From: a virus | Length of the DNA: 64,000 bases | Direction: 5' to 3' (one strand) | Virus record (IMG/VR): IMGVR_UViG_3300031576_000004 | Location: 62,001-126,000 of that record | Part shown: positions 17,886 through 28,667 of the stretch, one piece after another | Layout of the letters: every line of letters begins with the position of its first letter | How positions within the stretch are numbered: the first letter of the stretch is position 1 | The notes under the pieces: model-generated | Databases searched by the model: none | What the model saw: only the letters and a program-made list of their open reading frames with translations | What the model was told of the DNA's origin: nothing | Translations under genes and position numbers: made by a program

Positions 17886-19324
17886 ATAAGAAGACGATCC
17901 GTGGCAAGGACTACGAAATCACTATGTCTCCGATGTCTCCAGAAGACATAAAGAAATTAACCGAAAAGACAGATCTCGTAGGCATAGAAGGATTAACAAT
18001 GGATGTTTCATTTGAATGGAGCGAAACAGGAGACAAAATGCAAGGATCGTCAATTGGAGCGATGGAAGCTGTAGAGGTAGCTCGTCCTAGCAACGAGCCT
18101 CCGATGCAGGCAACAAAGGCCGAGAGAAATCGGCCAATGATTAGGAACAAGCTCGATAAATCAAAGATGGTTACACATCCACTTGGCATCCCAGGTGGAT
18201 TTAGCTCTCAGTTCCACTTCAAGCCTCAATCCATGATTGAGTACACCATCGCCATTAAGGGCGCTGCGGATCTCTTCCAGCAAATGGACTATGTCAACGC
18301 TGGACCGAGAAACTACCTGCAAGTGGGACTAATGGAACACCAGGAATGCTTGGCAAATGGAGCAGCCGTTAAGAACATAGATGGGCATCTTACATCAGTT
18401 GTTCTTTCTACGAATCCCGACAACGGTATCTTCTCCGCTTCATTCCATAGTTACAACGAAGATGCCATGCAGAAGATGGCCAGCGAGTTTCATCGCGTTT
18501 GCAGCGAGGGAAACTTTTACCGTGGGAAGCATCTTAAGGCTATGGACTTTGATTGCCCACAGCCTCTGGTATTCCTATCTCCTCCAGCAAATCCTCTAAT
18601 CTACGGATTCAAGGAAGAGCAGGATGCAATTAATATGCATGCTGTTCGGTATTTCGAATGTGAAGAGATCCATAAGATCGCCCCTCAGAGAGGAGTTCTT
18701 CTCTATGGGCGTCCAGGCTCTGGAAAGAGTCTATTGGTCTCAAAGACGAAGTACGAATGCCTACAGAAAGGCATTACAGTGGTTGAGGCAAGCATCGAGG
18801 GTATGCGAGAGATCGGTAAGTGGTTCGCTCTTATCGAAGCATGGCTTGCCCCTGCCCTAGTTGTCCTTGAGGACGTGGATCTTATTGGTGGAGACAGGGA
18901 TATTCCTGAACTGCCCCACCAGCTTACTACAGATCTTCTGTCCAGCCTTGGCGGCAACACCAGGCGCATTAATCCCATCGTGACCATTGCCACGACCAAC
19001 CGCTTGGACTCTCTCGATAACGCATTCCTTCGGGCTCGGCGAATGGACAAGGTTATGGAGATCAATGGTCTCCAGCCTGATTTTAAAGCCGAGTTGTTCC
19101 GCCGGCATGGGATGAAGGTGACAGAACAGGCTCTTCAAGCCGCGGTTACTCAGCTCGGACCAGACACTACTGGAGCCGACGTTGAAGAGATTTCTGTCAG
19201 CACTCTGACCTATAGCCATTTCGGAATGCCACATGAAGAGGCCTTCACCAAGAGCCTGGGAGAATGGGCTAAGGGCCATTCCGCTAAAGCAAATCTTGGC
19301 TTTAACAAGAAGCAGCAAGACTAA
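17882..19324 (+). CDS. AAA+ ATPase (480 aa)
   Basis: Walker A GRPGSGKS at 276-283, Walker B VVLEDVD at 327-333, sensor ATTN at 370-373 and an arginine pair in LRARRMD near 386 define a classic AAA+ module of the FtsH/Cdc48 type. About 260 residues precede it and hold no recognised domain, so this is probably the substrate- or partner-binding part. Likely forms a hexamer that remodels protein or DNA complexes. GTG start in a GTGA overlap. Last gene before the structured-RNA region. Confidence 0.88.
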   Translation: MNKKTIRGKDYEITMSPMSPEDIKKLTEKTDLVGIEGLTMDVSFEWSETGDKMQGSSIGAMEAVEVARPSNEPPMQATKAERNRPMIRNKLDKSKMVTHPLGIPGGFSSQFHFKPQSMIEYTIAIKGAADLFQQMDYVNAGPRNYLQVGLMEHQECLANGAAVKNIDGHLTSVVLSTNPDNGIFSASFHSYNEDAMQKMASEFHRVCSEGNFYRGKHLKAMDFDCPQPLVFLSPPANPLIYGFKEEQDAINMHAVRYFECEEIHKIAPQRGVLLYGRPGSGKSLLVSKTKYECLQKGITVVEASIEGMREIGKWFALIEAWLAPALVVLEDVDLIGGDRDIPELPHQLTTDLLSSLGGNTRRINPIVTIATTNRLDSLDNAFLRARRMDKVMEINGLQPDFKAELFRRHGMKVTEQALQAAVTQLGPDTTGADVEEISVSTLTYSHFGMPHEEAFTKSLGEWAKGHSAKANLGFNKKQQD

Positions 19325-19329
19325 CCTAT

Positions 19330-19513
19330 CCGTGTGGCTGCGAGGAAGGACTCGCAACAGTTAATAGAACAGAAAGGCACGGCTATCTGGTGGTTCCAGA
19401 TAGTTGTAATGGTCAATCTCCTATTGGTTGGAATGTGTCGCCAGCGGGCGGCCTCCGCAAATAGCCTCACCAGCCCTGAAAGCGGAAAGCCGGTGTCAAG
19501 TCCGGTCCACACG
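19330..19513 (+). ncRNA. Structured RNA element C (about 184 nt)
   Basis: Closed by CCGTGTGG (19330-19337) and CCACACGG (19506-19513). Inside are TGCGAG-GAAGGA-CTCGCA, CTATCTGG-TGGTT-CCAGATAG, and a stem CACC/GGTG around CCCTGAAAGCGG. That last segment resembles the anticodon arm of the tRNA-Ser(TGA) at 24103. No good protein is encoded; a 68-codon ORF across it has no recognisable features. It lies between the ATPase gene and a gene with strongly GC-ending codons. Confidence 0.55.
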
Positions 19514-19575
19514 GGCCATAGCTACTCAACATATTTATAACTATATTTATAGGAGGATTCGCAGCGGAGACTTAA

Positions 19576-20325
19576 ATGAAACTTACGAGTAAGGATCTTG
19601 AAGAAGTTTATGAGGGCGAGACTCGGTTTGTTAAGGCAAAGGCGATGTTCGTTACCCCTCTGGTTGGCGGCGTTCCTGCCAGCCGTGAGGGTGTAGAGAA
19701 CTATGTCGAGTTCGCCATGAATCTTGTCCGTGACTCCCAGGAGTTCAAGGACAAGGTAGCCGAGATCTTGAAGGAAGAGATCGGCGAGAGAGAGATCAAG
19801 CCAGATGAGGGCGAGAAGGATGAGGTTGCGTCCTATGGCGTTAACTGCATCCGCAAGGATAAGTTCGGCCATTTCCTGATGGACTTCCAGATCAAGGCCA
19901 ACCTGAAGTGCGCTGCATCAAGGATCGGGCTATTCGTGGCCGATAAGGCCGCCGGCCGTAAGGCTGGAGCCAAGGGAGATATGGCTGAGCTCGGACGAGT
20001 TCACGCTATCGGTGCCTCATTGAGGGATGTTGAAAACAAGAGGAAGATCTATCTTCTTCAGAATGGCGGAACCCCAGTAAAGACTGTCTATGAGAAGTTC
20101 ATGGGCAAGGTGAGCAACGCCTCTGGCTCTCACTCCATCGTCCATGACTCTGAGGTCGCCCCTGCTGGAACCTGGTTCGAATTCGAGTTCAGGGCTCCGG
20201 ACAAGCGCCTCAAGGCTGAGGACTTCAAGCGCATCTTCGCGCACTCTGGTATTATCGGCTTCGGTTCCGCTCGTTCTCTGGAGCGCGGCAAGGTCGAGTA
20301 TCAGGAAGTTGAGATCGAGGATTAG
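19576..20325 (+). CDS. Conserved phage-like protein with glycine-rich loop (249 aa)
   Basis: AGGAGGATTCGCAGCGGAG lies upstream. Codons are strongly biased to G/C endings compared with neighbours, suggesting high expression. The C-terminal IIGFGSARSLERGKVE resembles the glycine-rich GxG...R..G.G loop of ferredoxin-fold RAMP-like proteins; I can see the motif but not a family match. It lies between structured elements C and B. An abundant nucleic-acid-binding protein is one possibility. Confidence 0.7.
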   Translation: MKLTSKDLEEVYEGETRFVKAKAMFVTPLVGGVPASREGVENYVEFAMNLVRDSQEFKDKVAEILKEEIGEREIKPDEGEKDEVASYGVNCIRKDKFGHFLMDFQIKANLKCAASRIGLFVADKAAGRKAGAKGDMAELGRVHAIGASLRDVENKRKIYLLQNGGTPVKTVYEKFMGKVSNASGSHSIVHDSEVAPAGTWFEFEFRAPDKRLKAEDFKRIFAHSGIIGFGSARSLERGKVEYQEVEIED

Positions 20326-20331
20326 TTAGTA

Positions 20332-20479
20332 ATTGGTTGGCGGCGGCGTGGAGAGCAGACACGCTTAAACAATACTGCGGATCCTACCCAATCACTGGAA
20401 CAGGTAGATTGAAGCCTATTGTTTTGCTGGACCCAGTGAATTCCAGATAGCCAGAGTAGCGCCTGGCCCGCCAACCAAT
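20332..20479 (+). ncRNA. Structured RNA element B (about 148 nt), homologous to element A
   Basis: Closed by a perfect 12-bp stem, ATTGGTTGGCGG (20332-20343) with CCGCCAACCAAT (20468-20479), followed by a T6 run at 20481. Inside are GCGTG/CACGC; AAACAATA/TATTGTTT crossed by TCACTGG/CCAGTGA (a potential pseudoknot); and, abutting the closing stem, GCCAG-AGTAGCGC-CTGGC. The closing stem and GTAGCG hairpin match element A. The T-run suggests the closing stem can also end transcription. Confidence 0.65.
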
Positions 20480-20497
20480 CTTTTTTGAAATTAGTTG

Positions 20498-20526
20498 TTG
20501 ACACCTATCCCATAGAATGCTAAAGT
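20498..20526 (+). promoter_or_regulatory. Sigma70-type promoter of the tRNA-array leader
   Basis: TTGACA at 20498-20503, a 17-base spacer and TAAAGT at 20521-20526 (four of six matches). Transcription would start near 20533, just upstream of the leader ORF. Confidence 0.65.
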
Positions 20527-20543
20527 TCGCCCCGAGGAGATCC

Positions 20544-20669
20544 ATGCTTTCATATAGGAAACCCTTTATTCAATTGTCGTGCGTGTGGGGAGAAAGCCTC
20601 CCACTACGCCCGATAACGCTCCATTCCGCCGGTCAGGCGGATAATACAAAGGAGCGGAGACTGGGATAA
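20544..20669 (+). CDS. Leader peptide using 39 different codons, upstream of the tRNA array (41 aa)
   Basis: ATG 20544 has CGAGGAGATCC in front. The 41 codons contain all 20 amino acids, and only CTC and GGA are used twice. Leu is encoded by CTT, TTG, CTC, CTA and CTG; Arg by AGG, CGC, CGG and AGA; Ser by TCA, TCG, AGC and TCC. Of the 41 tRNAs downstream, 37 have a cognate or wobble-cognate codon here. The stop (20667-20669) touches the first base of the antiterminator stem. The peptide itself looks functionless; its translation is probably the sensor. Confidence 0.75.
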   Translation: MLSYRKPFIQLSCVWGESLPLRPITLHSAGQADNTKERRLG

Positions 20670-20700
20670 CGGGTTCCGAACTAGAGATAAAAGGAACCCG
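20670..20700 (+). promoter_or_regulatory. Antiterminator hairpin of the tRNA-array leader
   Basis: CGGGTTCC (20670-20677) pairs perfectly with GGAACCCG (20693-20700). Its last four bases, CCCG, are also the first four of the terminator stem, so the two cannot form together. A ribosome at the leader stop codon would cover its 5' arm. Confidence 0.75.
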
Positions 20701-20736
20701 AAATCCCTGAAAAGGAATTTCGGGTTTTTTGTTTTT
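20697..20736 (+). terminator. Attenuator terminator before the tRNA array
   Basis: CCCGAAAT (20697-20704) pairs with ATTTCGGG (20717-20724), followed by TTTTTTGTTTTT. A strong intrinsic terminator 38 bases before the first tRNA. Confidence 0.9.
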
Positions 20737-20774
20737 ACCTAGGACGACGAAAGGACGGTGCGGAAGAAATAACT

Positions 20775-20849
20775 GGGTCCTAAGCATTAACAGTGATGCA
20801 GTTGGCTCTTAACCAACAGAAGAGGGTGCGATTCCCTCAGGACCCACCA
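20775..20849 (+). tRNA. tRNA-Lys(CTT)
   Basis: Acceptor GGGTCCT/AGGACCC, anticodon loop CTCTTAA, encoded CCA. D-loop has AG instead of GG and T-loop is TGCGATT (no T55). Confidence 0.93.
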
Positions 20850-20851
20850 AT

Positions 20852-20926
20852 GGGCTGTAAGCTTTAAAAGTGAAGCAGTTGGCCTTTAACCAACAGAACT
20901 CGGAGCGTTACCGAGGCGGCCCACCA
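20852..20926 (+). tRNA. tRNA-Lys(TTT)
   Basis: Acceptor GGGCTGT/GCGGCCC, anticodon loop CCTTTAA, encoded CCA. D-loop AG, T-loop AGCGTTA (variant class). Confidence 0.92.
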
Positions 20927-20941
20927 ACTAATGATTTAAAC

Positions 20942-21017
20942 GGTGCTATGGTGTAGCGGCTCTGCATGCCTGGTTGTCAACCAGTAGGTCCGAGTTCGAC
21001 TCTCGGTAGTACCGCCA
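20942..21017 (+). tRNA. tRNA-Asp(GTC)
   Basis: Acceptor GGTGCTA/TAGTACC, anticodon loop TTGTCAA, G73, encoded CCA. Canonical GG D-loop and TTCGACT T-loop. Confidence 0.95.
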
Positions 21018-21051
21018 GATTAGATCGGTTCGGTTCTTTGAAAACTTTGCG

Positions 21052-21091
21052 TGCGGGAACACCTGACTGAAGGAACTTCAGTAGGCCCGCA
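21052..21091 (+). other. Long imperfect hairpin between tRNA-Asp and tRNA-Val
   Basis: TGCGGG...CCCGCA encloses CCT...AGG and ACTGAAG-GAA-CTTCAGT. No T-run follows; it may be a processing or RNase III-type site within the array transcript. Confidence 0.6.
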
Positions 21092-21105
21092 TGATGTTGT
21101 GTGGT
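21091..21105 (+). repeat. 15-bp inverted repeat, left copy
   Basis: ATGATGTTGTGTGGT; its exact reverse complement lies at 25418-25432, at the other end of the array. Confidence 0.8.
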
Positions 21106-21109
21106 AAAT

Positions 21110-21185
21110 GCGCGCTTAACTCAGCGGCTAGAGTGCCTCTTTTACACGGAGGAAGTCAGGGGTTCGAGTCCCTTAGCGCGTACCA
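21110..21185 (+). tRNA. tRNA-Val(TAC)
   Basis: Acceptor GCGCGCT/AGCGCGT, anticodon loop TTTACAC, encoded CCA. GG D-loop, TTCGAGT T-loop. Confidence 0.93.
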
Positions 21186-21187
21186 GT

Positions 21188-21262
21188 TGCCCTGTCGTCT
21201 AATTGGCAAGACGCGAGACTTTGGATCTCGCTATTCAGGTTCGAACCCTGGCGGGGCAACCA
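21188..21262 (+). tRNA. tRNA-Gln(TTG)
   Basis: Acceptor TGCCCTG/CGGGGCA, anticodon loop CTTTGGA, encoded CCA. GG D-loop, TTCGAAC T-loop. Confidence 0.95.
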
Positions 21263-21272
21263 ATTTAAATAT

Positions 21273-21347
21273 CGGGCTCTAGGCTCGGAGTGAGCCGCTT
21301 GTTTCGGGAACAAGAGGCGGCGTGTGCAACTCACGCGAGCCCGACCA
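21273..21347 (+). tRNA. tRNA-Pro(CGG)
   Basis: Acceptor CGGGCTC/GAGCCCG, anticodon loop TTCGGGA, encoded CCA. D-loop AG, T-loop TGCAACT (variant class). Confidence 0.92.
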
Positions 21348-21348
21348 T

Positions 21349-21423
21349 TCAGGAGTAGTTCAATTGGTAGAACGACAGACTCTGGATCTGTAGATCTTGG
21401 TTCGATTCCAGGCTCCTGAACCA
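21349..21423 (+). tRNA. tRNA-Gln(CTG)
   Basis: Acceptor TCAGGAG/CTCCTGA, anticodon loop CTCTGGA, encoded CCA. GG D-loop, TTCGATT T-loop. Confidence 0.95.
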
Positions 21424-21442
21424 ATAGTAAACGATAAAATAT

Positions 21443-21517
21443 GGACCTGTAGCTCAAGGGTCAGAGCACGTGCCTTATAAGCACTAGACGGTGGTTCGAC
21501 TCCACCCAGGTCTACCA
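21443..21517 (+). tRNA. tRNA-Ile(TAT)
   Basis: Acceptor GGACCTG/CAGGTCT, anticodon loop CTTATAA, encoded CCA. TTCGACT T-loop. Reads ATA. Confidence 0.93.
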
Positions 21518-21518
21518 T

Positions 21519-21592
21519 GCGGGTTTAGCTCAAAAGAAGAGTGTTAGCGTGACATGCTAAAGACAGAGGAGCGTTACCTCTAACCCGCACCA
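21519..21592 (+). tRNA. tRNA-Val(GAC)
   Basis: Acceptor GCGGGTT/AACCCGC, anticodon stem TTAGC/GCTAA with loop GTGACAT, encoded CCA. D-loop AG, T-loop AGCGTTA (variant class). Confidence 0.88.
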
Positions 21593-21593
21593 T

Positions 21594-21668
21594 CCACCCT
21601 TAACATAGAAGTCTATGTGCCTGTCTGATACGCAGGAAATCGTGGAGCGTTACCACGAGGGTGGACCA
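21594..21668 (+). tRNA. tRNA-Ile(GAT)
   Basis: Acceptor CCACCCT/AGGGTGG, anticodon loop CTGATAC, encoded CCA. D-loop AG, T-loop AGCGTTA (variant class). Confidence 0.9.
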
Positions 21669-21687
21669 ATATAACAGGAGTTTATTC

Positions 21688-22056
21688 ATGCCATACAAAG
21701 ACCCAGCCATTCAGAGAGCATTCCAAAACAAATTCTTAAAAGAAAGACGGGATCTATGGCTAGCATCTAATGGCCCATGCTCCTGCGGATCTCGAATAGA
21801 TCTTCAAGTCGACCATGTGGATCCAAGCAAAAAGGTGGATCATAAAGTTTGGTCATGGTCAGAAAAAAGAAGAGCCGAAGAGTTGTCTAAATGCCAAGTT
21901 CTTTGCAAGAAGTGTCATAGAAAAAAGACGAACAAAGACAACAATTATGGACAAATCCACGGCACATATAATTCGTATAAACGATATTGTTGCCGGTGCG
22001 CTCCATGCAAAAAAGCTTCGGCAGAAGATAGAAGAAGGTGGAAGCGAAATAGATAA
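21688..22056 (+). CDS. HNH endonuclease inserted in the tRNA array (122 aa)
   Basis: CSCGSRIDLQVDHVDPSKK followed by CQVLCKKCHRKKT is an HNH core with a zinc-binding CxxC pair and the central DH. A second cysteine set (CCRCAPCKKAS) lies near the C-terminus. AACAGGAG precedes the ATG at 21688, 20 bases after tRNA-Ile, and the stop is four bases before tRNA-Pro, so it fills a gap between tRNAs neatly. Probably a homing-type nuclease. Confidence 0.85.
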   Translation: MPYKDPAIQRAFQNKFLKERRDLWLASNGPCSCGSRIDLQVDHVDPSKKVDHKVWSWSEKRRAEELSKCQVLCKKCHRKKTNKDNNYGQIHGTYNSYKRYCCRCAPCKKASAEDRRRWKRNR

Positions 22057-22059
22057 CTT

Positions 22060-22134
22060 CGGGGTGTAGCTCAGAGGAAGAGCGCCTGGTTTGGGACCAG
22101 GAGGCCGAGATATCATAATTCTCCACCCCGACCA
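22060..22134 (+). tRNA. tRNA-Pro(TGG)
   Basis: Acceptor CGGGGTG/CACCCCG, anticodon loop TTTGGGA, encoded CCA. Unusual T-loop ATCATAA with a mismatched T-stem pair. Confidence 0.88.
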
Positions 22135-22136
22135 AT

Positions 22137-22212
22137 GGTGGCTATAGCTCAAGTAGTAGAGCACGGGTCTGTGGAACCTGTTATGCGAGTGCAAGTCTCG
22201 CTAGTCACCCCA
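22137..22212 (+). tRNA. tRNA-His(GTG)
   Basis: Carries the His-specific extra G(-1) opposite C73; acceptor GTGGCTA/TAGTCAC, loop CTGTGGA, encoded CCA. D-loop AG, T-loop TGCAAGT (variant class). Confidence 0.93.
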
Positions 22213-22220
22213 ACACAAAG

Positions 22221-22328
22221 TGCGCCGACCGATCGGATGGACGATCAGTGGGGATATCCCTTACCCATGAATACGCCCGAAAGGGGAATAGTGGGATAGC
22301 CAGAATCAATCCTGGCGCGGCGTTACCA
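22221..22328 (+). ncRNA. Structured CCA-ended element in the tRNA array (108 nt), not a normal tRNA
   Basis: CGCCG...CGGCG closes the element, which ends TTACCA. Inside: GATCG-GATGGA-CGATC, TATCCC...GGGATA enclosing CCC-GAAA-GGG, and CCAG-AATCAAT-CCTGG. I cannot thread it as a cloverleaf with an anticodon. It may be a tRNA-like decoy, a remnant or a processing element. Confidence 0.45.
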
Positions 22329-22329
22329 A

Positions 22330-22403
22330 GGGCATTCAGCTCGGAAGTCGAGCGCTTCCCTGAAGAGGAAGAGAGCCAGGAGCGTTACCTGGAATGCCCA
22401 CCA
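22330..22403 (+). tRNA. tRNA-Phe(GAA)
   Basis: Acceptor GGGCATT/AATGCCC, anticodon loop CTGAAGA, encoded CCA. T-loop AGCGTTA (variant class). Confidence 0.92.
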
Positions 22404-22412
22404 ATCAAACAT

Positions 22413-22486
22413 GGGCTTCTAGTTCAACGGTAGAACGTCAGCCCTGCAAGCTGAATATCGGAGTTCGATTCTCCGGAGGTCCACCA
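22413..22486 (+). tRNA. tRNA-Ala(TGC)
   Basis: Acceptor GGGCTTC/GAGGTCC, anticodon loop CCTGCAA, encoded CCA. GG D-loop, TTCGATT T-loop. Confidence 0.94.
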
Positions 22487-22487
22487 T

Positions 22488-22561
22488 CCGGCTGTAGCTC
22501 AATGGCAGAGCGCTAGCTTCCCAAGCTAGTTACGGGGGTTCGATTCCCCTCAGCCGGTCCA
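22488..22561 (+). tRNA. tRNA-Gly(CCC)
   Basis: Acceptor CCGGCTG/CAGCCGG, anticodon loop TTCCCAA, T73, encoded CCA. Canonical loops. Confidence 0.94.
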
Positions 22562-22562
22562 A

Positions 22563-22636
22563 CCACCTGTAGCTCAATGGTAGAGCGTCTCTTTGCCAAG
22601 GAGAACACGGGAGTTCGATTCTCCTCAGGTGGTCCA
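22563..22636 (+). tRNA. tRNA-Gly(GCC)
   Basis: Acceptor CCACCTG/CAGGTGG, anticodon loop TTGCCAA, T73, encoded CCA. Canonical loops. Confidence 0.95.
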
Positions 22637-22644
22637 TTAAAATT

Positions 22645-22718
22645 GCACGTGTATCTCAATGGCAGAGAGCGAGTTTTCCAAACTCGTTACGAGGGTTCGA
22701 TTCCCTCCACGTGCTCCA
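22645..22718 (+). tRNA. tRNA-Gly(TCC)
   Basis: Acceptor GCACGTG/CACGTGC, anticodon loop TTTCCAA, T73, encoded CCA. Canonical loops. Confidence 0.95.
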
Positions 22719-22719
22719 A

Positions 22720-22793
22720 GCCCGCATAGCTTAGTGGCAGAGCACCTCATTGGTAATGAGGAGATACTGGTCCGATTCCAGTTGTGGGCTCCA
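22720..22793 (+). tRNA. tRNA-Thr(GGT)
   Basis: Acceptor GCCCGCA/TGTGGGC, anticodon loop TTGGTAA, encoded CCA. GG D-loop with T-loop TCCGATT (C55). Confidence 0.94.
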
Positions 22794-22794
22794 A

Positions 22795-22868
22795 GCTACT
22801 GTAGTTCAATAGTAGAATCTCTCACTCGTAATGAGAGGACGGCGGAGCGTAACCGCCCAGTAGCTCCA
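22795..22868 (+). tRNA. tRNA-Thr(CGT)
   Basis: Acceptor GCTACTG/CAGTAGC, anticodon loop CTCGTAA, encoded CCA. D-loop AG, T-loop AGCGTAA (variant class). Confidence 0.93.
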
Positions 22869-22869
22869 A

Positions 22870-22943
22870 GCTGGTATAGTTCAACGGCAGAATAGGTGCC
22901 TTGTAAGCACTTGATGAGGGTTCAATTCCTTCTACCAGCTCCA
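22870..22943 (+). tRNA. tRNA-Thr(TGT)
   Basis: Acceptor GCTGGTA/TACCAGC, anticodon loop CTTGTAA, encoded CCA. GG D-loop, TTCAATT T-loop. Confidence 0.94.
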
Positions 22944-22954
22944 ATAAGATCCGT

Positions 22955-23039
22955 TCAGGGGCAGCATGATGGTCATGCGCCTGGCTGTTAACCAGCGTCC
23001 GCAAGGACAATGTGGGTTCGAGTCCCACCCCCTGAGCCA
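22955..23039 (+). tRNA. tRNA-Asn(GTT) with a long variable arm
   Basis: Acceptor TCAGGGG/CCCCTGA, anticodon loop CTGTTAA, G73, encoded CCA, canonical T-loop. The variable region contains GTCC-GCAA-GGAC, a hairpin normally seen in Ser, Leu and Tyr tRNAs. Confidence 0.88.
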
Positions 23040-23040
23040 C

Positions 23041-23128
23041 CCCGTACTAGGCAGATAAAGATTCTGCGCAGACTGTAAATCTGAAGCCTTAAAAGCCACT
23101 CCTGGAGCATTACCAGGGTACGGGACCA
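23041..23128 (+). tRNA. tRNA-Tyr(GTA)
   Basis: Acceptor CCCGTAC/GTACGGG, anticodon loop CTGTAAA, long variable region, encoded CCA. D-loop AG, T-loop AGCATTA (variant class). Confidence 0.9.
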
Positions 23129-23137
23129 TTAAATATC

Positions 23138-23350
23138 GCGGGGAGACATGTTCGAAGCAGGACCAATCCTTAATCGGATTGATATAGTGTAATAGGCAGC
23201 ACACCCGCATTTGTTTTAGATATGGAGAGAGAGGTGGGTTCGATTCCCACGCGGTGGAAGGAAGCATTCGTATGCCGTAGCGGTATAGGATCCCGAGTAG
23301 TAAGCGGGGTCTTGCATGCTGACAGCCGTTGTCTGGGCCGAGCTCTCCGC
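23138..23350 (+). ncRNA. Structured element with a T-arm-like hairpin inside the tRNA array
   Basis: GCGGGGAG (23138-23145) and CTCTCCGC (23343-23350) can close the region. It contains GTGGG-TTCGATT-CCCAC, a perfect T-arm, and a D-arm-like GTG...CAC at about 23190, but I find no matching acceptor, anticodon arm or CCA end. Either a tRNA remnant or a different structured RNA. Confidence 0.4.
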
Positions 23351-23355
23351 ATTTT

Positions 23356-23430
23356 GCTCTCGTCGTATACTAGTTAATACCTCTGGTTCTCATCCAGAAA
23401 AAAGCGGAGCGTAACCGCTCGAGAGCACCA
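23356..23430 (+). tRNA. tRNA-Glu(CTC)
   Basis: Acceptor GCTCTCG/CGAGAGC, anticodon stem TCTGG/CCAGA with loop TTCTCAT, encoded CCA. D-loop AG, T-loop AGCGTAA (variant class). Confidence 0.9.
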
Positions 23431-23432
23431 AC

Positions 23433-23506
23433 GGCGCATTCCTCTATCGGCAGGAGACCTGGTTTTCACCCAGGCAAGACGAGTTCGACTCTCGTATGCG
23501 CTACCA
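23433..23506 (+). tRNA. tRNA-Glu(TTC)
   Basis: Acceptor GGCGCAT/ATGCGCT, anticodon loop TTTTCAC, encoded CCA. GG D-loop, TTCGACT T-loop. Confidence 0.94.
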
Positions 23507-23513
23507 TAAATTC

Positions 23514-23584
23514 GGGTCGTCTTCTGGGGAAGAGCTAGAACTCCAAATCCTGGCAGGAAGGTTCAATTCCTTCACGACCCGCCA
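23514..23584 (+). tRNA. tRNA-Trp(CCA)
   Basis: Acceptor GGGTCGT/ACGACCC, anticodon loop CTCCAAA in a stem with one mismatch, G73, encoded CCA. TTCAATT T-loop. Confidence 0.88.
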
Positions 23585-23592
23585 AAATCTAA

Positions 23593-23669
23593 GGCCGATA
23601 AGCTAAAGCATAGGAAGCGCCTGCCTGCAGAGCAGGTATTAATTGGTGAAACTCCAATATCGGCCTCCA
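23593..23669 (+). tRNA. tRNA-Cys(GCA)
   Basis: Acceptor GGCCGAT/ATCGGCC, anticodon loop CTGCAGA, T73, encoded CCA. D-loop AG, T-loop TGAAACT (variant class, no C56). Confidence 0.91.
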
Positions 23670-23676
23670 ATCTTTC

Positions 23677-23685
23677 TGATATAAT
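23677..23685 (+). promoter_or_regulatory. Extended -10 promoter placed at the 5' end of tRNA-Met
   Basis: TGATATAAT, a perfect extended -10. The predicted start point is at about 23692, within a base of the mature 5' end of tRNA-Met at 23691. CTTTCTGATATAATA recurs almost unchanged at 27930. Confidence 0.55.
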
Positions 23686-23690
23686 ACGGG

Positions 23691-23764
23691 CGCGGGATAG
23701 TGAAGTAGTATCACGTGAGCCTCATAAGCTCAAGACCTCCGTGCGAACCGGAGTCCCGCTACCA
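23691..23764 (+). tRNA. tRNA-Met(CAT), initiator-like first pair
   Basis: CGCGGGA against TCCCGCT leaves C1 opposite T72 unpaired, as in initiator tRNAs, where pair 1-72 is open. Anticodon loop CTCATAA, encoded CCA. The anticodon stem lacks the three G-C pairs of bacterial initiators, so the role is uncertain. D-loop AG, T-loop TGCGAAC. Confidence 0.9.
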
Positions 23765-23783
23765 CCTAATATTAGGAGGGCGC

Positions 23784-24113
23784 ATGCCGCCAAAGTTGCT
23801 CACTGCGAACAGAAAAAAGTATGACGCCACTTACGCTGTTAAAACAAAAAAGACAAGGCATGAGTTCTTTTTAAAAGTCGGTTCTTATTGTCTTTTCTGC
23901 AGAAAGCGAAAACATCTGAAATGTCATCGTACTGATTGGATCCGACACGTTCCTTTTGAGAATATGTCGCGTGTAAAGCTTGCGGCAGAAAATCCAAAAG
24001 AATACGCGAGAGTTTGTTTCGGCTGCCATTATGGGGTTCATTGGCTACATGACCGTTTTGGACTTACTTGGCCTGAGATTCTCGCGCTTAAAGCTAGAAA
24101 ACGGAAGGTTTGA
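23784..24113 (+). CDS. HNH-like zinc protein inserted in the tRNA array (109 aa)
   Basis: CLFCRKRKHLKCHRTD and CFGCHYGVHWLHDRFG give two zinc-ligand pairs with nearby histidines, the layout of degenerate HNH homing proteins. TTAGGAGGGCGC precedes the ATG. Its last codons and stop lie inside the 5' end of tRNA-Ser(TGA), an 11-base overlap. Confidence 0.75.
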   Translation: MPPKLLTANRKKYDATYAVKTKKTRHEFFLKVGSYCLFCRKRKHLKCHRTDWIRHVPFENMSRVKLAAENPKEYARVCFGCHYGVHWLHDRFGLTWPEILALKARKRKV

Positions 24114-24193
24114 GCATTGGCAAGCTCACCCGCCTTGAAAGCGGACAGTCGGTGAAAGCCGGCTTGCGAGTCCGACTCTCGCACCTTCCTCCA
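24103..24193 (+). tRNA. tRNA-Ser(TGA)
   Basis: Acceptor GGAAGGT/ACCTTCC, anticodon loop CTTGAAA, long variable arm, encoded CCA. GG D-loop with T-loop TCCGACT (C55). The 5' 11 bases overlap the preceding coding sequence. Confidence 0.93.
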
Positions 24194-24202
24194 ATTATGC
24201 AT

Positions 24203-24287
24203 GGAGAGCAAACTAACCGGTGGTTAGCCTAGTCCCGAAAACTAGTGGGCGCATTGCGCTGGGGTGCGAGTCCTCTACTCTCCGCCA
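24203..24287 (+). tRNA. tRNA-Ser(CGA)
   Basis: Acceptor GGAGAGC/ACTCTCC (one mismatch), anticodon loop CCCGAAA, variable arm GCGC-ATT-GCGC, encoded CCA. T-loop TGCGAGT while the D-loop keeps GG. Confidence 0.9.
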
Positions 24288-24294
24288 TTAAAAT

Positions 24295-24407
24295 AGCCCT
24301 GTGCGTTCTGTGCGCGACAGAAAGAGCCGTTGAGCTCCCAGAGGGGTATCTCTAGTTGAGCCGCGGTGAAACGAACGGGTGATCCAATTCACTCACAGGG
24401 CTTTCCA
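24295..24407 (+). ncRNA. Second structured CCA-ended element in the tRNA array (113 nt)
   Basis: AGCCCTGTG and CACAGGGCT form a perfect 9-bp closing stem, and the element ends TTCCA. Inside: TTCTGT-GCGCG-ACAGAA, GAGC...GCTC and GGGTGA-TCCAAT-TCACTC. The long acceptor and 6-bp D-like stem recall tRNA-Sec, but I find no TCA anticodon loop. Comparable in size and ending to the element at 22221. Confidence 0.5.
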
Positions 24408-24408
24408 T

Positions 24409-24496
24409 GGATAGGATTGAGAGCGGCTACTCTACCCAAGTTGGAAGCTTGGCAGGTGTAAAAGCCTTGTGGGTTCGACGCCCACCCTATCCGCCA
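24409..24496 (+). tRNA. tRNA-Ser(GGA)
   Basis: Acceptor GGATAGG/CCTATCC, anticodon loop TTGGAAG, long variable region, G73, encoded CCA. GG D-loop, TTCGACG T-loop. Confidence 0.93.
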
Positions 24497-24503
24497 AAAC
24501 TAT

Positions 24504-24590
24504 GGAGTGAATTGCAAGCGGCTATGCTAACCGGTTTGCTAAACCGACACGGGTAACACCGTTGAGCGTTCGACTCGCTCTCACTCCGCC
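24504..24590 (+). tRNA. tRNA-Ser(GCT)
   Basis: Acceptor GGAGTGA/TCACTCC, anticodon loop TTGCTAA, long variable region, G73, encoded CCA. Canonical loops. Confidence 0.93.
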
Positions 24591-24592
24591 AA

Positions 24593-24667
24593 TGGCTAGG
24601 TAGTTCAATAGTAGAACGTGGGTTTCATAAGCCCAAGACGATGGAGCGTAACCATCCCTAGCTACCA
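24593..24667 (+). tRNA. tRNA-Met(CAT), second copy
   Basis: Acceptor GGCTAGG/CCTAGCT fully paired, anticodon loop TTCATAA, encoded CCA. Elongator Met, or Ile2 if C34 is lysidinylated; sequence cannot decide. D-loop AG, T-loop AGCGTAA. Confidence 0.9.
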
Positions 24668-24668
24668 A

Positions 24669-24753
24669 CCGCTCGTGGGGGAATAGCAGTCCCATCCGGC
24701 TCAGAACCGGACGGTTAACAGCCATGCAGGTGCAACTCCTGCCGAGCGGACCA
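24669..24753 (+). tRNA. tRNA-Leu(CAG)
   Basis: Acceptor CCGCTCG/CGAGCGG, anticodon loop CTCAGAA, long variable arm, encoded CCA. D-loop AG, T-loop TGCAACT. Confidence 0.93.
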
Positions 24754-24760
24754 AACTAAT

Positions 24761-24842
24761 CCCGAGGTGGTGGAACAGCAGACACAGCAGCCTCAAAAAC
24801 TGCCGCGAAAGCGTGAGAGTGCAATTCTCTCCCTCGGGACCA
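24761..24842 (+). tRNA. tRNA-Leu(CAA)
   Basis: Acceptor CCCGAGG/CCTCGGG, anticodon loop CTCAAAA, variable arm CGC-GAAA-GCG, encoded CCA. D-loop AG, T-loop TGCAATT. Confidence 0.92.
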
Positions 24843-24845
24843 TTC

Positions 24846-24931
24846 GCGGATGTGGCGTAACGGCAGCCGCACCAGCTTGAGGTGCTGGCGCTCGAAAGGG
24901 CGTGCAGGTTCGACTCCTGTCATCCGCACCA
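24846..24931 (+). tRNA. tRNA-Leu(GAG)
   Basis: Acceptor GCGGATG/CATCCGC, anticodon loop TTGAGGT, long variable arm, encoded CCA. GG D-loop, TTCGACT T-loop. Confidence 0.94.
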
Positions 24932-24937
24932 ATCTTT

Positions 24938-25011
24938 GTCCCTGTAGGCTAATAGAAGACCACAGCGCTACGAACGCTGAAATCCTCGTGCAAATCGAGG
25001 CAGGGATACCA
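24938..25011 (+). tRNA. tRNA-Arg(ACG)
   Basis: Acceptor GTCCCTG/CAGGGAT, anticodon loop CTACGAA, encoded CCA. D-loop AG, T-loop TGCAAAT. Needs A34 to inosine editing to read CGC. Confidence 0.93.
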
Positions 25012-25020
25012 ATAAATAAT

Positions 25021-25105
25021 GGGGGAGTGGCGGAACTGGCAGACGCGCTAGCCTTAGGAGCTAGTGGGTAATACCGTGCAGGTTCAAATCCTGTCTCCCT
25101 CACCA
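25021..25105 (+). tRNA. tRNA-Leu(TAG)
   Basis: Acceptor GGGGGAG/CTCCCTC, anticodon loop CTTAGGA, long variable region, encoded CCA. GG D-loop, TTCAAAT T-loop. Confidence 0.94.
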
Positions 25106-25106
25106 T

Positions 25107-25177
25107 GCCCCGCGTGCCGAGCACATCCAGCTCTTCTAAAGCAGGATCGCCAGGATTAACACCTGGGCGGGGTACCA
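25107..25177 (+). tRNA. tRNA-Arg(TCT), minimal D-arm
   Basis: Acceptor GCCCCGC/GCGGGGT, anticodon loop CTTCTAA with one stem mismatch, encoded CCA. D-arm is GTGC-CGA-GCAC, a three-base loop, and the T-loop is ATTAACA, so the normal elbow contacts are missing. Confidence 0.85.
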
Positions 25178-25186
25178 ACTTTAAAT

Positions 25187-25261
25187 GCCCGATTCTTCCA
25201 GCAGATAGGATACCGCTCTCCGAAAGCGGCGACCCGTGTGCAAGTCACGGATCGGGCACCA
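25187..25261 (+). tRNA. tRNA-Arg(CCG)
   Basis: Acceptor GCCCGAT/ATCGGGC, anticodon loop CTCCGAA, encoded CCA. D-loop AG, T-loop TGCAAGT. Confidence 0.93.
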
Positions 25262-25263
25262 AT

Positions 25264-25338
25264 GGGCCTGTGGTGTAACGGATAGCATGCTCCTTTCCTA
25301 AAGGAACGGCGAAGGTTCAATTCCTTCCAGGCCTACCA
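25264..25338 (+). tRNA. tRNA-Arg(CCT)
   Basis: Acceptor GGGCCTG/CAGGCCT, anticodon loop TTCCTAA, encoded CCA. GG D-loop, TTCAATT T-loop. Confidence 0.92.
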
Positions 25339-25344
25339 TTCTGT

Positions 25345-25421
25345 GCGGGGGTGATGTAATTGGCAAACATCTGCGACTTAAAATCGCGGTTCTACGGGTT
25401 CAAATCCCGTCCCCCGTACCA
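25345..25421 (+). tRNA. tRNA-Leu(TAA) with a short variable loop
   Basis: Acceptor GCGGGGG/CCCCCGT, anticodon loop CTTAAAA, encoded CCA, canonical loops. Only 77 nt: the variable region is about five bases, whereas Leu tRNAs normally have a long arm. Last tRNA of the array. Confidence 0.88.
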
Positions 25422-25432
25422 CACAACATCAT
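25418..25432 (+). repeat. 15-bp inverted repeat, right copy
   Basis: ACCACACAACATCAT, the reverse complement of 21091-21105. It begins in the ACCA end of the last tRNA. Confidence 0.8.
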
Positions 25433-25452
25433 TGCGTCTCGCAAACAAAGTA

Positions 25453-25481
25453 TTGACATGTTAGTTGACTGGAAGCATTAT
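25453..25481 (+). promoter_or_regulatory. Sigma70-type promoter for the HNH gene after the array
   Basis: TTGACA at 25453-25458, a 17-base spacer and CATTAT at 25476-25481. The expected start is at about 25488, directly at the ATG at 25489, so the message is probably leaderless, as for the LAGLIDADG gene at 13208. Confidence 0.7.
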
Positions 25482-25488
25482 TAACATC

Positions 25489-25974
25489 ATGGAATACAAT
25501 AAACAAACAAAAACATGTCCGCACTGCAAAAGAACTCTCCCTGTGAAGGCTTTTCCGCCTAGACATGTCGGAGAAAATTATCCAGGATCATATTGCTATG
25601 AGTGCAATCGGAAAAGAGGGAAAAAGTACTACAAAAAGAATAAAAAGATATGGGTCGAATGGGCAAAAAATAATAAAGATAAGGTGGCTGAGAGCAACAG
25701 AAGAACTTGGGATAAGTTAAGAAATGGACTGTTTGACGCTTATGGTGGCAGATGTACATGCTGCAAAGAAAGTCATAGAGAATTTTTAAACTTAGAACAT
25801 ATCAAGAAAGACGGACAAAAAGAGCGAAAGCTGCTCAGAAACAATAGGACTGTTTACAGGAAAGTGCGTGATGCTGGATATCCAAAAGACCGCTATACAA
25901 TTCTATGCTGGAACTGTAATGTTGTAGAACGACATGGGAAAACGTGTCCACATAAATTAGAAAAGAGGAATTAA
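25489..25974 (+). CDS. HNH-type homing endonuclease (161 aa)
   Basis: Two zinc-knuckle CxxC sets (CPHCKRTLP...CYECNRKRG) at the N-terminus are typical of phage HNH homing proteins. A second part has CTCCKESHREFLNLEHIKKD and ILCWNCNVVERHGKTCPH, the HNH core with its central H. No ribosome site lies before ATG 25489; the promoter geometry implies leaderless translation. A TTG at 25465 would overlap the -10 box. Confidence 0.82.
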   Translation: MEYNKQTKTCPHCKRTLPVKAFPPRHVGENYPGSYCYECNRKRGKKYYKKNKKIWVEWAKNNKDKVAESNRRTWDKLRNGLFDAYGGRCTCCKESHREFLNLEHIKKDGQKERKLLRNNRTVYRKVRDAGYPKDRYTILCWNCNVVERHGKTCPHKLEKRN

Positions 25975-25975
25975 A

Positions 25976-26575
25976 ATGACTTGTATGGTTCTCGATAGCC
26001 CAGTCTTGGAATTGAACAAAAGTTGGATGCCGTTAAATATTATTGACGCGCGTCGGGCTTTTTCCATGATGATGGCTGGACTGGCGAGAGCCGTCGAGCC
26101 TGAAACGTATCAGCTTCACACATTCGATACCTGGGCTGATCTATTAGCTATGGATGACGAACCTGTTATTCACACCGTCAGCCTGGCTCTTAAGATCCCA
26201 GAGATCATCGTGCTGAACAAGTATGACGCCATGCCAATGAAGAAGACCATCTTCAGCCGGCGCAACGTCTACAAGCGGGATAAGAACACCTGTCAGTATT
26301 GTGGATCTCAGCCTGGGACAGAGGAAATAACCATCGACCACGTTATTCCAAAGTCTAAGGGTGGGCAGTCTTCTTGGACTAACTGCGTGTGTGCTTGCGT
26401 ACCTTGCAACGCCAAGAAGGCTGCCAAGACGCTGGTCCAGGCAAAGATGAGGCTAAAGCATCTACCTATTGAGCCTAAGTGGACGCCTGGGATGGCAATA
26501 GCTAGATTCAACATGAAGTCATCCTGGAGCAAGTTCATTAGCGACGCCTACTGGAATGTGGAGCTTCAGGGCTAA
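25976..26575 (+). CDS. HNH endonuclease of the bacterial stand-alone family (199 aa)
   Basis: Starts VLDSPVLELNKSWMPLNIIDARRA and continues FSRRNVYKRDKNTCQYCG, ITIDHVIPKSKGG and CVPCNAKK: zinc CxxC pairs, DH motif and terminal N/K of the HNH fold. The N-terminal NKSWMP...ARRA block is characteristic of a widespread bacterial HNH family. GAGGAATTAAA precedes the ATG, one base after the previous gene. Its end meets the GGTATAAGA motif that opens the RNA region. Confidence 0.88.
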   Translation: MTCMVLDSPVLELNKSWMPLNIIDARRAFSMMMAGLARAVEPETYQLHTFDTWADLLAMDDEPVIHTVSLALKIPEIIVLNKYDAMPMKKTIFSRRNVYKRDKNTCQYCGSQPGTEEITIDHVIPKSKGGQSSWTNCVCACVPCNAKKAAKTLVQAKMRLKHLPIEPKWTPGMAIARFNMKSSWSKFISDAYWNVELQG

Positions 26576-26580
26576 ATTCT

Positions 26581-26593
26581 GGTATAAGAACAT
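26581..26593 (+). promoter_or_regulatory. Phage promoter-like motif GGTATAAGA, copy 4
   Basis: GGTATAAGAACAT directly upstream of the long structured RNA, so it would drive an untranslated transcript. Confidence 0.6.
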
Positions 26594-26595
26594 AG

Positions 26596-27095
26596 CAGCC
26601 TAAAGTTCGTCTTTGAAATCCTGAGATCTAGACGAATTCCTAATAACAGTAACCCGCTAAATGCGGTGATCTGTAGATCCTGTCCGAGTGGGATAAAGAC
26701 CTACTCGGGCGGTTGTTTTAATCCCGAAAGGGATAAGAGGTGGGGTGCACAGATGTCTTTCGGTGTACAGGTTTATAGTGGAGCAGGTGAGTTACCATTG
26801 GTGACCCGATCTGTGATGAAGCTATAAATCCGAGGCCCAGCTCTGTGCAAATCCATGGTAAACCATGGGGTCTGTGGGGAAACCCTATGACTGCCTCATC
26901 TCGGGCCTAATAATAGAGAGCTTTGGATGATTCTCACCGCGACATGCGGGAGAGAATCCTTGCTGTGATAAACGTGTCAGCGATCTAACCACAGCAATTT
27001 GCTTGGCCTGACATCCAAGTAGATAATGCAGGCGGGTGCCCACGACAGTCCTTAACTCTAGCTAGGTGGGAGATGCCTGGTCCATGGCTCTTTTT
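26596..27095 (+). ncRNA. Long, densely folded RNA (about 500 nt) upstream of tmRNA
   Basis: No plausible protein. Helices tile the whole stretch: TTCGTC/GACGAA, CCGC-TAAAT-GCGG, CCGAGT/ACTCGG, ATCCC-GAAA-GGGAT (GNRA loop), GTTACC-ATT-GGTGAC, AGGCCC/GGGCCT, GATTCTC/GAGAATC enclosing CCGC-GACAT-GCGG, TTGCTGTG/CACAGCAA, CTTGG/CCAAG and CAGGC/GCCTG enclosing CCCAC/GTGGG. It ends near a CTCTTTTTC run. Size, phage setting and tRNA/tmRNA neighbours recall the ornate large RNAs ROOL and GOLLD, but I cannot confirm membership. Confidence 0.75.
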
Positions 27096-27104
27096 CTAAA
27101 CTCT

Positions 27105-27495
27105 GGGGGTGAATAGATTCGACTGATTACGTACGGACTAAAGGTGCGTCTCGCGGAAGTCTGCTCGGCCGCGTTAAAAAAGCAGGCACACATTACATGC
27201 TAACAGCAATGTAATCAACGGCAGCTTCGGCTCACGGGCCGGAGTGGTCGCTATGGCTGCTTAGGCAACCATGGAAATCGAAGCGCAAAGTCTGTAGCGC
27301 CGAGAGGATAAACGCAGGCTGGACCCAGGAACTGGATCGCACTGGGTTGAGATAAGATCCTAGCTGACGGGGTTAGATGATGGCAAAACAGGTGACCCGA
27401 AGGCGAAATCTAACCGCATCTGATCCATTAATAGACGTAGCAACCTTTAGCTGAATGTTTTCAGGACGCGGGTGCGAATCCCGCCACCTCCACCA
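27105..27495 (+). ncRNA. ssrA: tmRNA (transfer-messenger RNA)
   Basis: Starts GGGGGTGAATAGATTCGAC and ends CACCTCCACCA, with GGGGGTG/CACCTCC acceptor and encoded CCA. The tag frame appears to begin ANSNVINGSF and end GVVAMAA before TAG (27262-27264), matching the Ala-Ala end of proteolysis tags but with Met for the usual Leu. Rescues stalled ribosomes and tags their products. The tRNA-like end has T-loop TGCGAAT (no T55) and TAGA where most tmRNAs have TGGA. Confidence 0.93.
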
Positions 27496-27508
27496 TCTTA
27501 ATCTCGCT

Positions 27509-27684
27509 GGGTGACAAGTAGCGACTCCTGGCAATAAACGGGTAAGATATTAATGGTTATAACCACACTACAATCAAGACAGATCGAAGGACGTGTGGTT
27601 CCTTCTGGACTATTAATATATGCCCGCCATTAATGCCAGAACACGGGTTGTAAAAAACCAGTCGGCAGTTCTGGCTTGTCACCC
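27509..27684 (+). ncRNA. Structured RNA element D (about 176 nt)
   Basis: Perfect 10-bp closing stem GGGTGACAAG (27509-27518) with CTTGTCACCC (27675-27684). Nested inside are ATTAATGG/CCATTAAT and ACCACAC/GTGTGGT, plus an alternative GCCAGAAC/GTTCTGGC that would compete with an outer TGGC/GCCA. The 5' side has AGTAGCG, as in elements A and B, but in a different place. It follows tmRNA by 13 bases and precedes a small gene. Confidence 0.6.
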
Positions 27685-27741
27685 TGCTGTTCCTTTGATC
27701 TTTCTTTTGTCGCGCAACCACGCACACGAAAGGAGAATCAT

Positions 27742-27936
27742 ATGCTCATTCAGATCGACACGGCGGTTCTGAATAAGATCCCTCGCGGAAGAATCCTTCG
27801 TGCGGAAGAGACCCGCGATATGGATGGTAAATTGAGAGACGCTATCGTTGTCGGTTGGTGGGACGGACATGATCCGCAGATCAGGAAGTCTTTCTTTGAT
27901 ATCAAGACCGCGGAATATCTCGGGGAGACTTTCTGA
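27742..27936 (+). CDS. Hypothetical protein (64 aa)
   Basis: AAAGGAGAATCAT precedes the ATG. Reads as a small beta-rich protein (LRDAIVVGWWDGHDPQIRKS). Function unknown. The stop lies at the TGATATAAT promoter-like sequence. Confidence 0.65.
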   Translation: MLIQIDTAVLNKIPRGRILRAEETRDMDGKLRDAIVVGWWDGHDPQIRKSFFDIKTAEYLGETF

Positions 27937-27943
27937 TATAATA
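27935..27943 (+). promoter_or_regulatory. Extended -10 promoter-like element
   Basis: TGATATAAT in the context CTTTCTGATATAATA, nearly identical to the sequence before tRNA-Met at 23677. Confidence 0.45.
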
Positions 27944-27979
27944 TTATAAGCCTCGCCTGCCATGTGTAGGTGGAGATCT

Positions 27980-28008
27980 TAGGCCGTCACCCTCATCAGG
28001 TGGCGGCC
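27980..28008 (+). other. Nested hairpin between two small genes
   Basis: AGGCCG/CGGCCT encloses CACC/GGTG over a short loop; the tail TTTGCATTT is only moderately T-rich. Weak terminator or leader structure of the next gene. Confidence 0.5.
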
Positions 28009-28038
28009 TTTGCATTTAACAACACAAGAGGGGAACAC

Positions 28039-28236
28039 ATGCCACAAACAGCAGAAGACGTAGCGCGAGCCTGCTGCACCCATTGCAGCTCTCAAGTATT
28101 TATGGATGGTCCACACCCATGCTCTCGCTGCATCGCGAATGCCAGGATAATCAAGCATTACGCGTTAATTCAATGGCGAGAGGGATGGGTAGCAAAAGGA
28201 CTTGGGAAAGAGATCAAGGACAATCCGAACTATTAG
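28039..28236 (+). CDS. Zinc-ribbon protein (65 aa)
   Basis: CCTHCSS near residue 11 and CSRCIA near residue 28 form a CxxC...CxxC ribbon. GAGGGGAACAC precedes the ATG. Last gene of the plus block before the convergent virion block. Confidence 0.7.
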   Translation: MPQTAEDVARACCTHCSSQVFMDGPHPCSRCIANARIIKHYALIQWREGWVAKGLGKEIKDNPNY

Positions 28237-28241
28237 TTCAA

Positions 28242-28278
28242 AGAGTCACACAGATTAACTCTGCGTGGCTCTTTTTTT
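28242..28278 (+). terminator. Intrinsic terminator between convergent blocks
   Basis: AGAGTCAC-A-CAG pairs with CTG-C-GTGGCTCT, followed by seven T on the plus strand. On the minus strand the mirror tail is A/T-poor, so it mainly serves the plus block. Confidence 0.85.
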
Positions 28279-28280
28279 AG

Positions 28281-28667
28281 CTATCGAGGCATTGCGCCAA
28301 TCATGAAGTTGCCAGTCTCGTCTGATTCGTAGGTCAGCTTCATGCCCTCGAGCTTTTCTTTTAGCTTGTGATATCCACAACTGCACTTCCCGTTCTTGCG
28401 GCGCATCATGTTGCAGCCAGCCTTGTGGTAGGCGAACGAGTAAGCCTCTCTTACGAGTTGGGGGTAATCCACAGGGGCGTCGCCTTTCATGTCCGTGTGC
28501 GGATTCATCAAGATATCCTCCAGGGCGTTAATGGTGCTGGATCCCATATACATGCAGAATGCGCAGGCCATAGGTAGCCCAGGTCTGTCAGAAGGGGCTG
28601 GATTGAAGTCGTCGCAGTGGCCCTCGATATGCACAGAGTGAAGATGCCTCATACACATGTGCGCCAC
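28281..28667 (-). CDS. Hypothetical Cys/His-rich protein (128 aa)
   Basis: Last gene of the minus virion block in transcription order. Many potential metal ligands: MCMRHLHSVHIEGHC, CAFC and CNMMRRKNGKCSCGYH. A GTG start behind AGGGGG. Probably binds zinc; function unknown. Confidence 0.65.
   Translation of the reverse strand: MAHMCMRHLHSVHIEGHCDDFNPAPSDRPGLPMACAFCMYMGSSTINALEDILMNPHTDMKGDAPVDYPQLVREAYSFAYHKAGCNMMRRKNGKCSCGYHKLKEKLEGMKLTYESDETGNFMIGAMPR

Follow-up and report, generated by a model that had tools for sequence, protein, structure and literature searches.

Why, and when, do phages express dozens of tRNAs? The locus analysed here bears on both parts of this question. In the window, the whole 64,000-nucleotide stretch that was analysed (bases 62001-126000 of a 163,302-base IMG/VR virus record), a short ORF and overlapping hairpins stand ahead of a large tRNA array. 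This arrangement was noticed in a first-pass annotation and is confirmed here, and the question it raises is whether the ORF governs transcription of the array. Judged from sequence, it very probably does: we propose that the locus is a ribosome-mediated transcription attenuator, in which the leader ORF would serve as a census of the tRNA pool.

Leader ORF, hairpins and tRNA array

The elements are arranged in the order promoter, Shine-Dalgarno sequence, leader ORF, terminator and tRNA array, with translation of the ORF presumed:

20498..20526, + strand: sigma70-type promoter TTGACA-17-TAAAGT with extended -10 (TG before the -10), 10/12 consensus matches
20535..20539, + strand: Shine-Dalgarno-like AGGAG, 4 nt 5' of the ATG, assigned by sequence
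20544..20669, + strand: leader ORF MLSYRKPFIQLSCVWGESLPLRPITLHSAGQADNTKERRLG, ATG at 20544, TAA at 20667-20669, 41 sense codons
20663..20677, + strand: antiterminator 5' arm GGGAU-AA-CGGGUUCC, containing the stop codon
20693..20707, + strand: antiterminator 3' arm GGAACCCG-AA-AUCCC, overlapping the terminator 5' arm
20694..20727, + strand: intrinsic terminator hairpin of -18.3 kcal/mol whose U-tract begins at 20725, 55 nt 3' of the stop
20775..25421, + strand: tRNA array, 33 tRNAs by ARAGORN alone, ~41-43 with Rfam and relaxed ARAGORN
20902, 21568, 21644, 22379, 22844, 23104, 23406 and 24643, + strand: array tRNAs with the variant T-arm motif GGAGCGTNACC

The promoter that the annotation had described is present as a consensus match only, in a scan that found 5 consensus promoters with 4.2 expected by chance. 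Its description of the ORF also holds: the 41 codons, starting at 20544, specify 20/20 amino acids and 39 of them are distinct, with GGA and CTC as the only repeated codons. The antiterminator (20663-20677 paired with 20693-20707) is the minimum free energy fold of 20640-20710, at -22.4 kcal/mol with z = -4.9, which bears out the proposed overlap of antiterminator and terminator at the ORF stop. The overlap had been placed in a shared CCCG; it is real, although larger than thought, and comprises the entire 5' arm of the terminator. Antiterminator (20663-20707) and terminator (20694-20727) are mutually exclusive. Since the stop codon lies inside the antiterminator 5' arm, a ribosome at the end of the ORF would, by geometry, cover that arm.

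Just 5' of the promoter lies a structured RNA (20327-20490, + strand) closed by a long stem (ATTGGTTGGCGG...CCGCCAACCAAT) with T6 after it; its fold has a z of -3.3 and no Rfam match, and it could be a terminator-ended small RNA. Within the array, the eight variant tRNAs carry GGAGCGTNACC (loop AGCGTTA-like) where GGTTCGANTCC is usual, with a mismatch in one of them, and several escape ARAGORN at default settings.

Codon diversity of the leader

How unusual is such an ORF? The first-pass annotation had argued that its codon distinctness exceeds chance, and this is upheld. Among 32,744 open windows in six frames (scanned with a 42-codon window beginning one base early), 39 distinct codons is the maximum, and it is reached at the leader ORF only. 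Phage-gene windows of the same length have a mean of 27.5 distinct codons (sd 2.7, maximum 36). Ranked against 978 short ORFs under uniform codon use, the leader comes first with P = 9.5e-6, the runner-up having 0.0043. With the peptide held fixed and the phage's codon usage applied, 39 distinct codons still has P = 2.7e-4.

The diversity extends to the array itself. With standard wobble, the leader codons are read by 38/41 of the array tRNAs, leaving the anticodons Val GAC, Gly CCC and Thr GGT; gene windows of leader length read a mean of 25.6 and a maximum of 35 of the 41. A count of 37 had been given earlier; the coverage stands and the number becomes 38, because a TAA anticodon can read TTG too.

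Leaders before tRNA arrays in other phages

The window's phage has no close relative in which to follow the leader, and tRNA-array starts elsewhere were therefore surveyed. By RNA polymerase it has distant relatives only (at most 53% identity), and we found no homologues of the leader or of its upstream gene. The phages nearest by RNA polymerase mostly have no such leader. Neither the nearest such relative (G003, whose array is cut at the contig end) nor Salmonella phage Arash gave a leader match; the same was true of PVP-SE1, RaK2, 121Q and GAP32 (these four by the present detector), CcrBL9, Phendrix and Wakanda, and two leader peptides had no tblastn match among phage isolates.

The survey covered 396 array starts, collected by pattern scans for three consecutive tRNA T-arms, from RNA-polymerase relatives and from fetched flanks. 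Short ORFs with 18-20 amino acids recur before large tRNA arrays. For arrays of at least 15 tRNAs, 23/287 upstream ATG-ORFs (8.0%) had amino-acid coverage at P < 0.05, compared with 57/2854 and 27/2234 (~1.65%) in control regions (Fisher 5.5e-9); arrays of 4-14 tRNAs had no excess of high-coverage upstream ORFs. A strict ATG-only scan of 22,874 ORFs yielded 191 unique ones with high amino-acid coverage, and 21 of these 191 have a terminator U-tract 46-62 nt after the stop. A tRNA gene lies within 650 nt downstream of 20/21 ORFs with this terminator versus 38/170 without it (Fisher 5e-11), a figure that describes co-occurrence within such regions, not a genome-wide rate, because the loci were chosen for tRNA arrays. 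The twenty-first ORF, MLNKLISNHYYMLGKQLTPAFWCESVRSTSINNDRVGVLKS (41 codons, L184, - strand), lies 1.7 kb before a 24-tRNA cluster. None of the 20 amino acids is missing from it, its stop is followed at 49 and 54 nt by terminators, and it may control the intervening genes as well. Three examples illustrate the class:

L213: MTSQSCHSSLRKQLPIVAVWNSTRPSFGYAIEDTKGFGKKK, before 27 tRNAs
L260: MKPSFQIKPTHSYPATSLNTMVWCALSAEGFSDSIENLRQGTTG, before 40 tRNAs
L251: MKHCQSYQFSLKASWMNRPEVKDIRLKGLTM, all 20 amino acids in 31 codons

The geometry is fixed to a similar degree. When 30-80 nt was allowed, the stop-to-U-tract distance was 46-60 nt in 25/25 high-coverage leaders (binomial 1.2e-12; Fisher 1.9e-6 versus low-coverage ORFs of the same regions). 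Folding of the RNA up to the terminator loop gave antiterminators with a median z of -2.6, below -2 in 28/35, and in most of the other leaders too the two hairpins are exclusive. In nearly all leaders, the final codons or the stop, between about -40 and +7 nt relative to the stop, are the pairing partner of most of the terminator 5' arm. Going by ribosome footprints, a terminating ribosome would cover this zone.

Several loci depart from the pattern. Some candidate leaders hold 14-18 amino acids only. A 39-codon ORF with all 20 amino acids (L221, 557-676, + strand) precedes 24 tRNAs and has overlapping hairpins after its stop with no U-tract following them; termination there may work differently. 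L213 (- strand) has two near-identical repeats with a promoter-like TTGACTCTTATTGTTCTTTACTGTATAAT in the stretch that separates its leader's terminator from the first tRNA, and this array may also be transcribed independently of its leader. We set aside the L091 ORF, which has high codon diversity and looks like part of a helix-turn-helix protein, and did not count the L122 match, whose start codon is TTG and which overlaps array sequence and lacks a suitable terminator. A 'far upstream' control for the spacing was discarded for catching genuine leaders before internal array starts.

Coverage was followed in three families of homologous leaders. First, family B, found by searching with the L243, L146 and L232 leaders, comprises 35 loci, all with tRNAs downstream; of the 34 complete leaders, 33 fit the full set of 20 amino acids into about 44-51 codons, at identities down to 54%. 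His, Trp and Asp are the residues relocated. His is lost at its usual site (IHQ to IQQ) and regained as LNH in L375/L381, NHR in L391/L395, EPKH in L394 and QQH in L402, and Trp has moved in L399 and L402. When alignment columns were shuffled, 19.0+-1.4 full leaders were obtained versus 26/27 observed (P < 2e-4), and after thinning to below 80% identity, 8.6+-1.1 versus 13/14. Second, all 12/12 loci of family C have the 20 amino acids, with Cys in column 9 or 16; 11/11 unique leaders are full versus 8.4+-1.1 shuffled (P = 0.017). Third, the homologues of family F, at 11 loci, are full too, most of them closely related. Looking before other arrays for ORFs with overlapping hairpins and above-control diversity therefore succeeded in independent families; the geometry is constant, and losses of an amino acid at one site are compensated so that all 20 remain.

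Because coverage and spacing served to pick the leaders, the tests that follow are free of that selection in respect of residue order and codon choice alone. Where a leader has 19-20 amino acids, the final one to make its first appearance does so on average 7.7 codons ahead of the stop, compared with 3.8 when the peptides are permuted (P 2.7e-5); amino-acid sampling is normally complete before the zone that a terminating ribosome would mask. Given the peptide, codon diversity increases with tRNA number (rho 0.51, P 0.003). Leader codons also match the anticodons of their own array above synonymous expectation, with a combined Z of 4.4 over 24 leaders, some homologous; pooled statistics of this kind are somewhat optimistic because family loci share ancestry. 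We decided against codon diversity alone as the mark that defines the class: the property that recurs, class-wide, is near-complete amino-acid coverage, and near-complete codon diversity is an extreme reached in the window's phage.

Leaders of this class are also found in isolated Vibrio phages. That of KVP40, MTHSNTHSDMILRSDFLRSEFVYLANPCAKQEWSPQT (record 178804-178917, minus strand), has 19 amino acids, stands before the tRNA array and has its stop codon within the antiterminator stem. This type of leader region is present in 50 deposited Vibrio phage records, in which the five versions read have 18-19 amino acids. In Vibrio phage D181 (and D69) the leader comprises 47 codons and 19 amino acids; the D181 annotation lists it as hypothetical protein VPHD181_0165.

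Proposed mechanism and relation to known systems

The ORF, the hairpins, their geometry, the code coverage and its conservation among relatives are features of the sequences themselves, and from them we infer promoter activity, translation, termination, the polarity of the switch, a response to tRNA shortage and feedback. RNA polymerase starting from 20498-20526 would make the leader, and a ribosome would begin translating it immediately. If all codons are read fast, the ribosome would reach the stop and cover the antiterminator 5' arm; the other arm, left free, would then allow the terminator to form, and transcription would end before the tRNA genes. If the ribosome has to wait at any codon for which charged tRNA is scarce, be it through host tRNA cleavage, shut-off or starvation, the antiterminator would form first and the whole array would be transcribed. 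Once the tRNAs are supplied, the array would be switched off again, closing a feedback loop. The last 7-8 codons fall within the zone that would be masked and could not signal as proposed. An untranslated leader would be expected to be ON by default, because the antiterminator is completed before the terminator 3' arm and folds more stably than the terminator; a clear protector hairpin, which would enforce termination without translation, was not identified.

The attenuator reading put forward in the first-pass annotation thus gains support from the comparative survey, the geometry and the retained coverage. Beyond the window, we consider it probable that code-wide attenuators are in wide use among phages with large tRNA arrays. 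In these, depletion of any single tRNA would release the entire array and restored supply would close it; the translated checklist would take in almost all amino acids and, in the phages richest in tRNAs, almost all codons, with tRNA-cleaving host immunity as one example of a trigger.

Could the leader instead sense translation in general, that is, ribosome supply, a translation block or lost coupling, with its diverse codons making it merely a neutral ORF? The same hairpin logic would answer to any slow ribosome, and the leaders with 14-18 amino acids fit such a sensor. However, it would have no need of 20-amino-acid coverage kept through relocated single-copy residues, of coverage completed before the masked codons and rising with array size, or of codons matched to the array's anticodons, and we regard it as unlikely. 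Still less credible is that the ORF is the gene of a small functional protein, with the hairpin as an ordinary terminator at its end. The conserved core of family B (WSDSLCGDV...YNNEPKQ) and the annotation of the D181 leader would suit a protein; yet the families listed above have no clear peptide similarity while having in common coverage, stop-to-U-tract distance and antiterminator position, and inside families residues move while coverage stays. A chance ORF beside an unrelated terminator 5' of the array is the least plausible reading, for although consensus promoters and terminators are common by chance, the codon diversity is the window maximum, the antiterminator is far more stable than expected and tRNA arrays of other phages are preceded by the same arrangement.

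The attenuator proposed here has a familiar architecture. Among the trp/his-type attenuators of amino-acid operons are E. coli trpL and hisL, as well as ilvL and thrL, whose sensing extends to two or three amino acids. Like these, the phage leaders combine a short translated reading frame (in the phages, presumed) with a mutually exclusive antiterminator and terminator, place the ORF end on the antiterminator 5' arm and have the terminator about 50-60 nt after the stop. Unlike them, they do not repeat codons for just one to three amino acids but contain up to 20, mostly once or twice each, and they precede tRNA genes rather than controlling biosynthesis genes. In the window, with 39/41 codons distinct, there are no codon runs or enrichment for a regulated amino acid, and the tRNA array follows where biosynthesis or synthetase genes would in an amino-acid operon. 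T-box riboswitches likewise respond to tRNA charging and control transcription read-through; a T-box, however, binds one uncharged tRNA directly via a specifier loop, whereas the sensor here would be a translated ORF, and the Rfam T-box covariance model had no match in 19300-28500 at E <= 0.5.

Phage tRNAs have been described as a counter-defence against tRNA-cleaving immunity (PMC10264068, PMC11555353). Those studies deal with the same kind of gene and propose tRNA depletion as the threat; they address tRNA function, and text searches of them found no leader or attenuator. No prior description of code-wide attenuators before phage tRNA arrays was found in the open-access literature, and novelty is not proven by this because the search covered open-access papers only.

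With a whole-code leader before it, an array would respond whenever any tRNA ran short. That phage tRNAs counteract tRNA depletion thereby becomes a directly testable idea, for which the KVP40-type records offer known sequences, and the leader would provide a ready-made general sensor of tRNA supply. Selection would here act on the residue set of a peptide and not on residue order, which is unusual.

Other features of this genome deserve mention. A phage tmRNA with the tag ANSNVINGSFGSRAGVVAMAA (27105-27495, + strand) lies 1.7 kb 3' of the array, and a tmRNA is found also in relative G012 and possibly in G020; its targets may be ribosomes that the same lack of tRNAs has stalled. The RNA polymerase beta and beta' subunits are fused in one 2119-aa ORF (35060-41419, - strand), with relatives at 34-53% identity in many IMG/VR contigs, and are split in others. 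Finally, a 772-aa protein with a long collagen-like QGNQG/QGWQG repeat is encoded at 58310-60628 (- strand).
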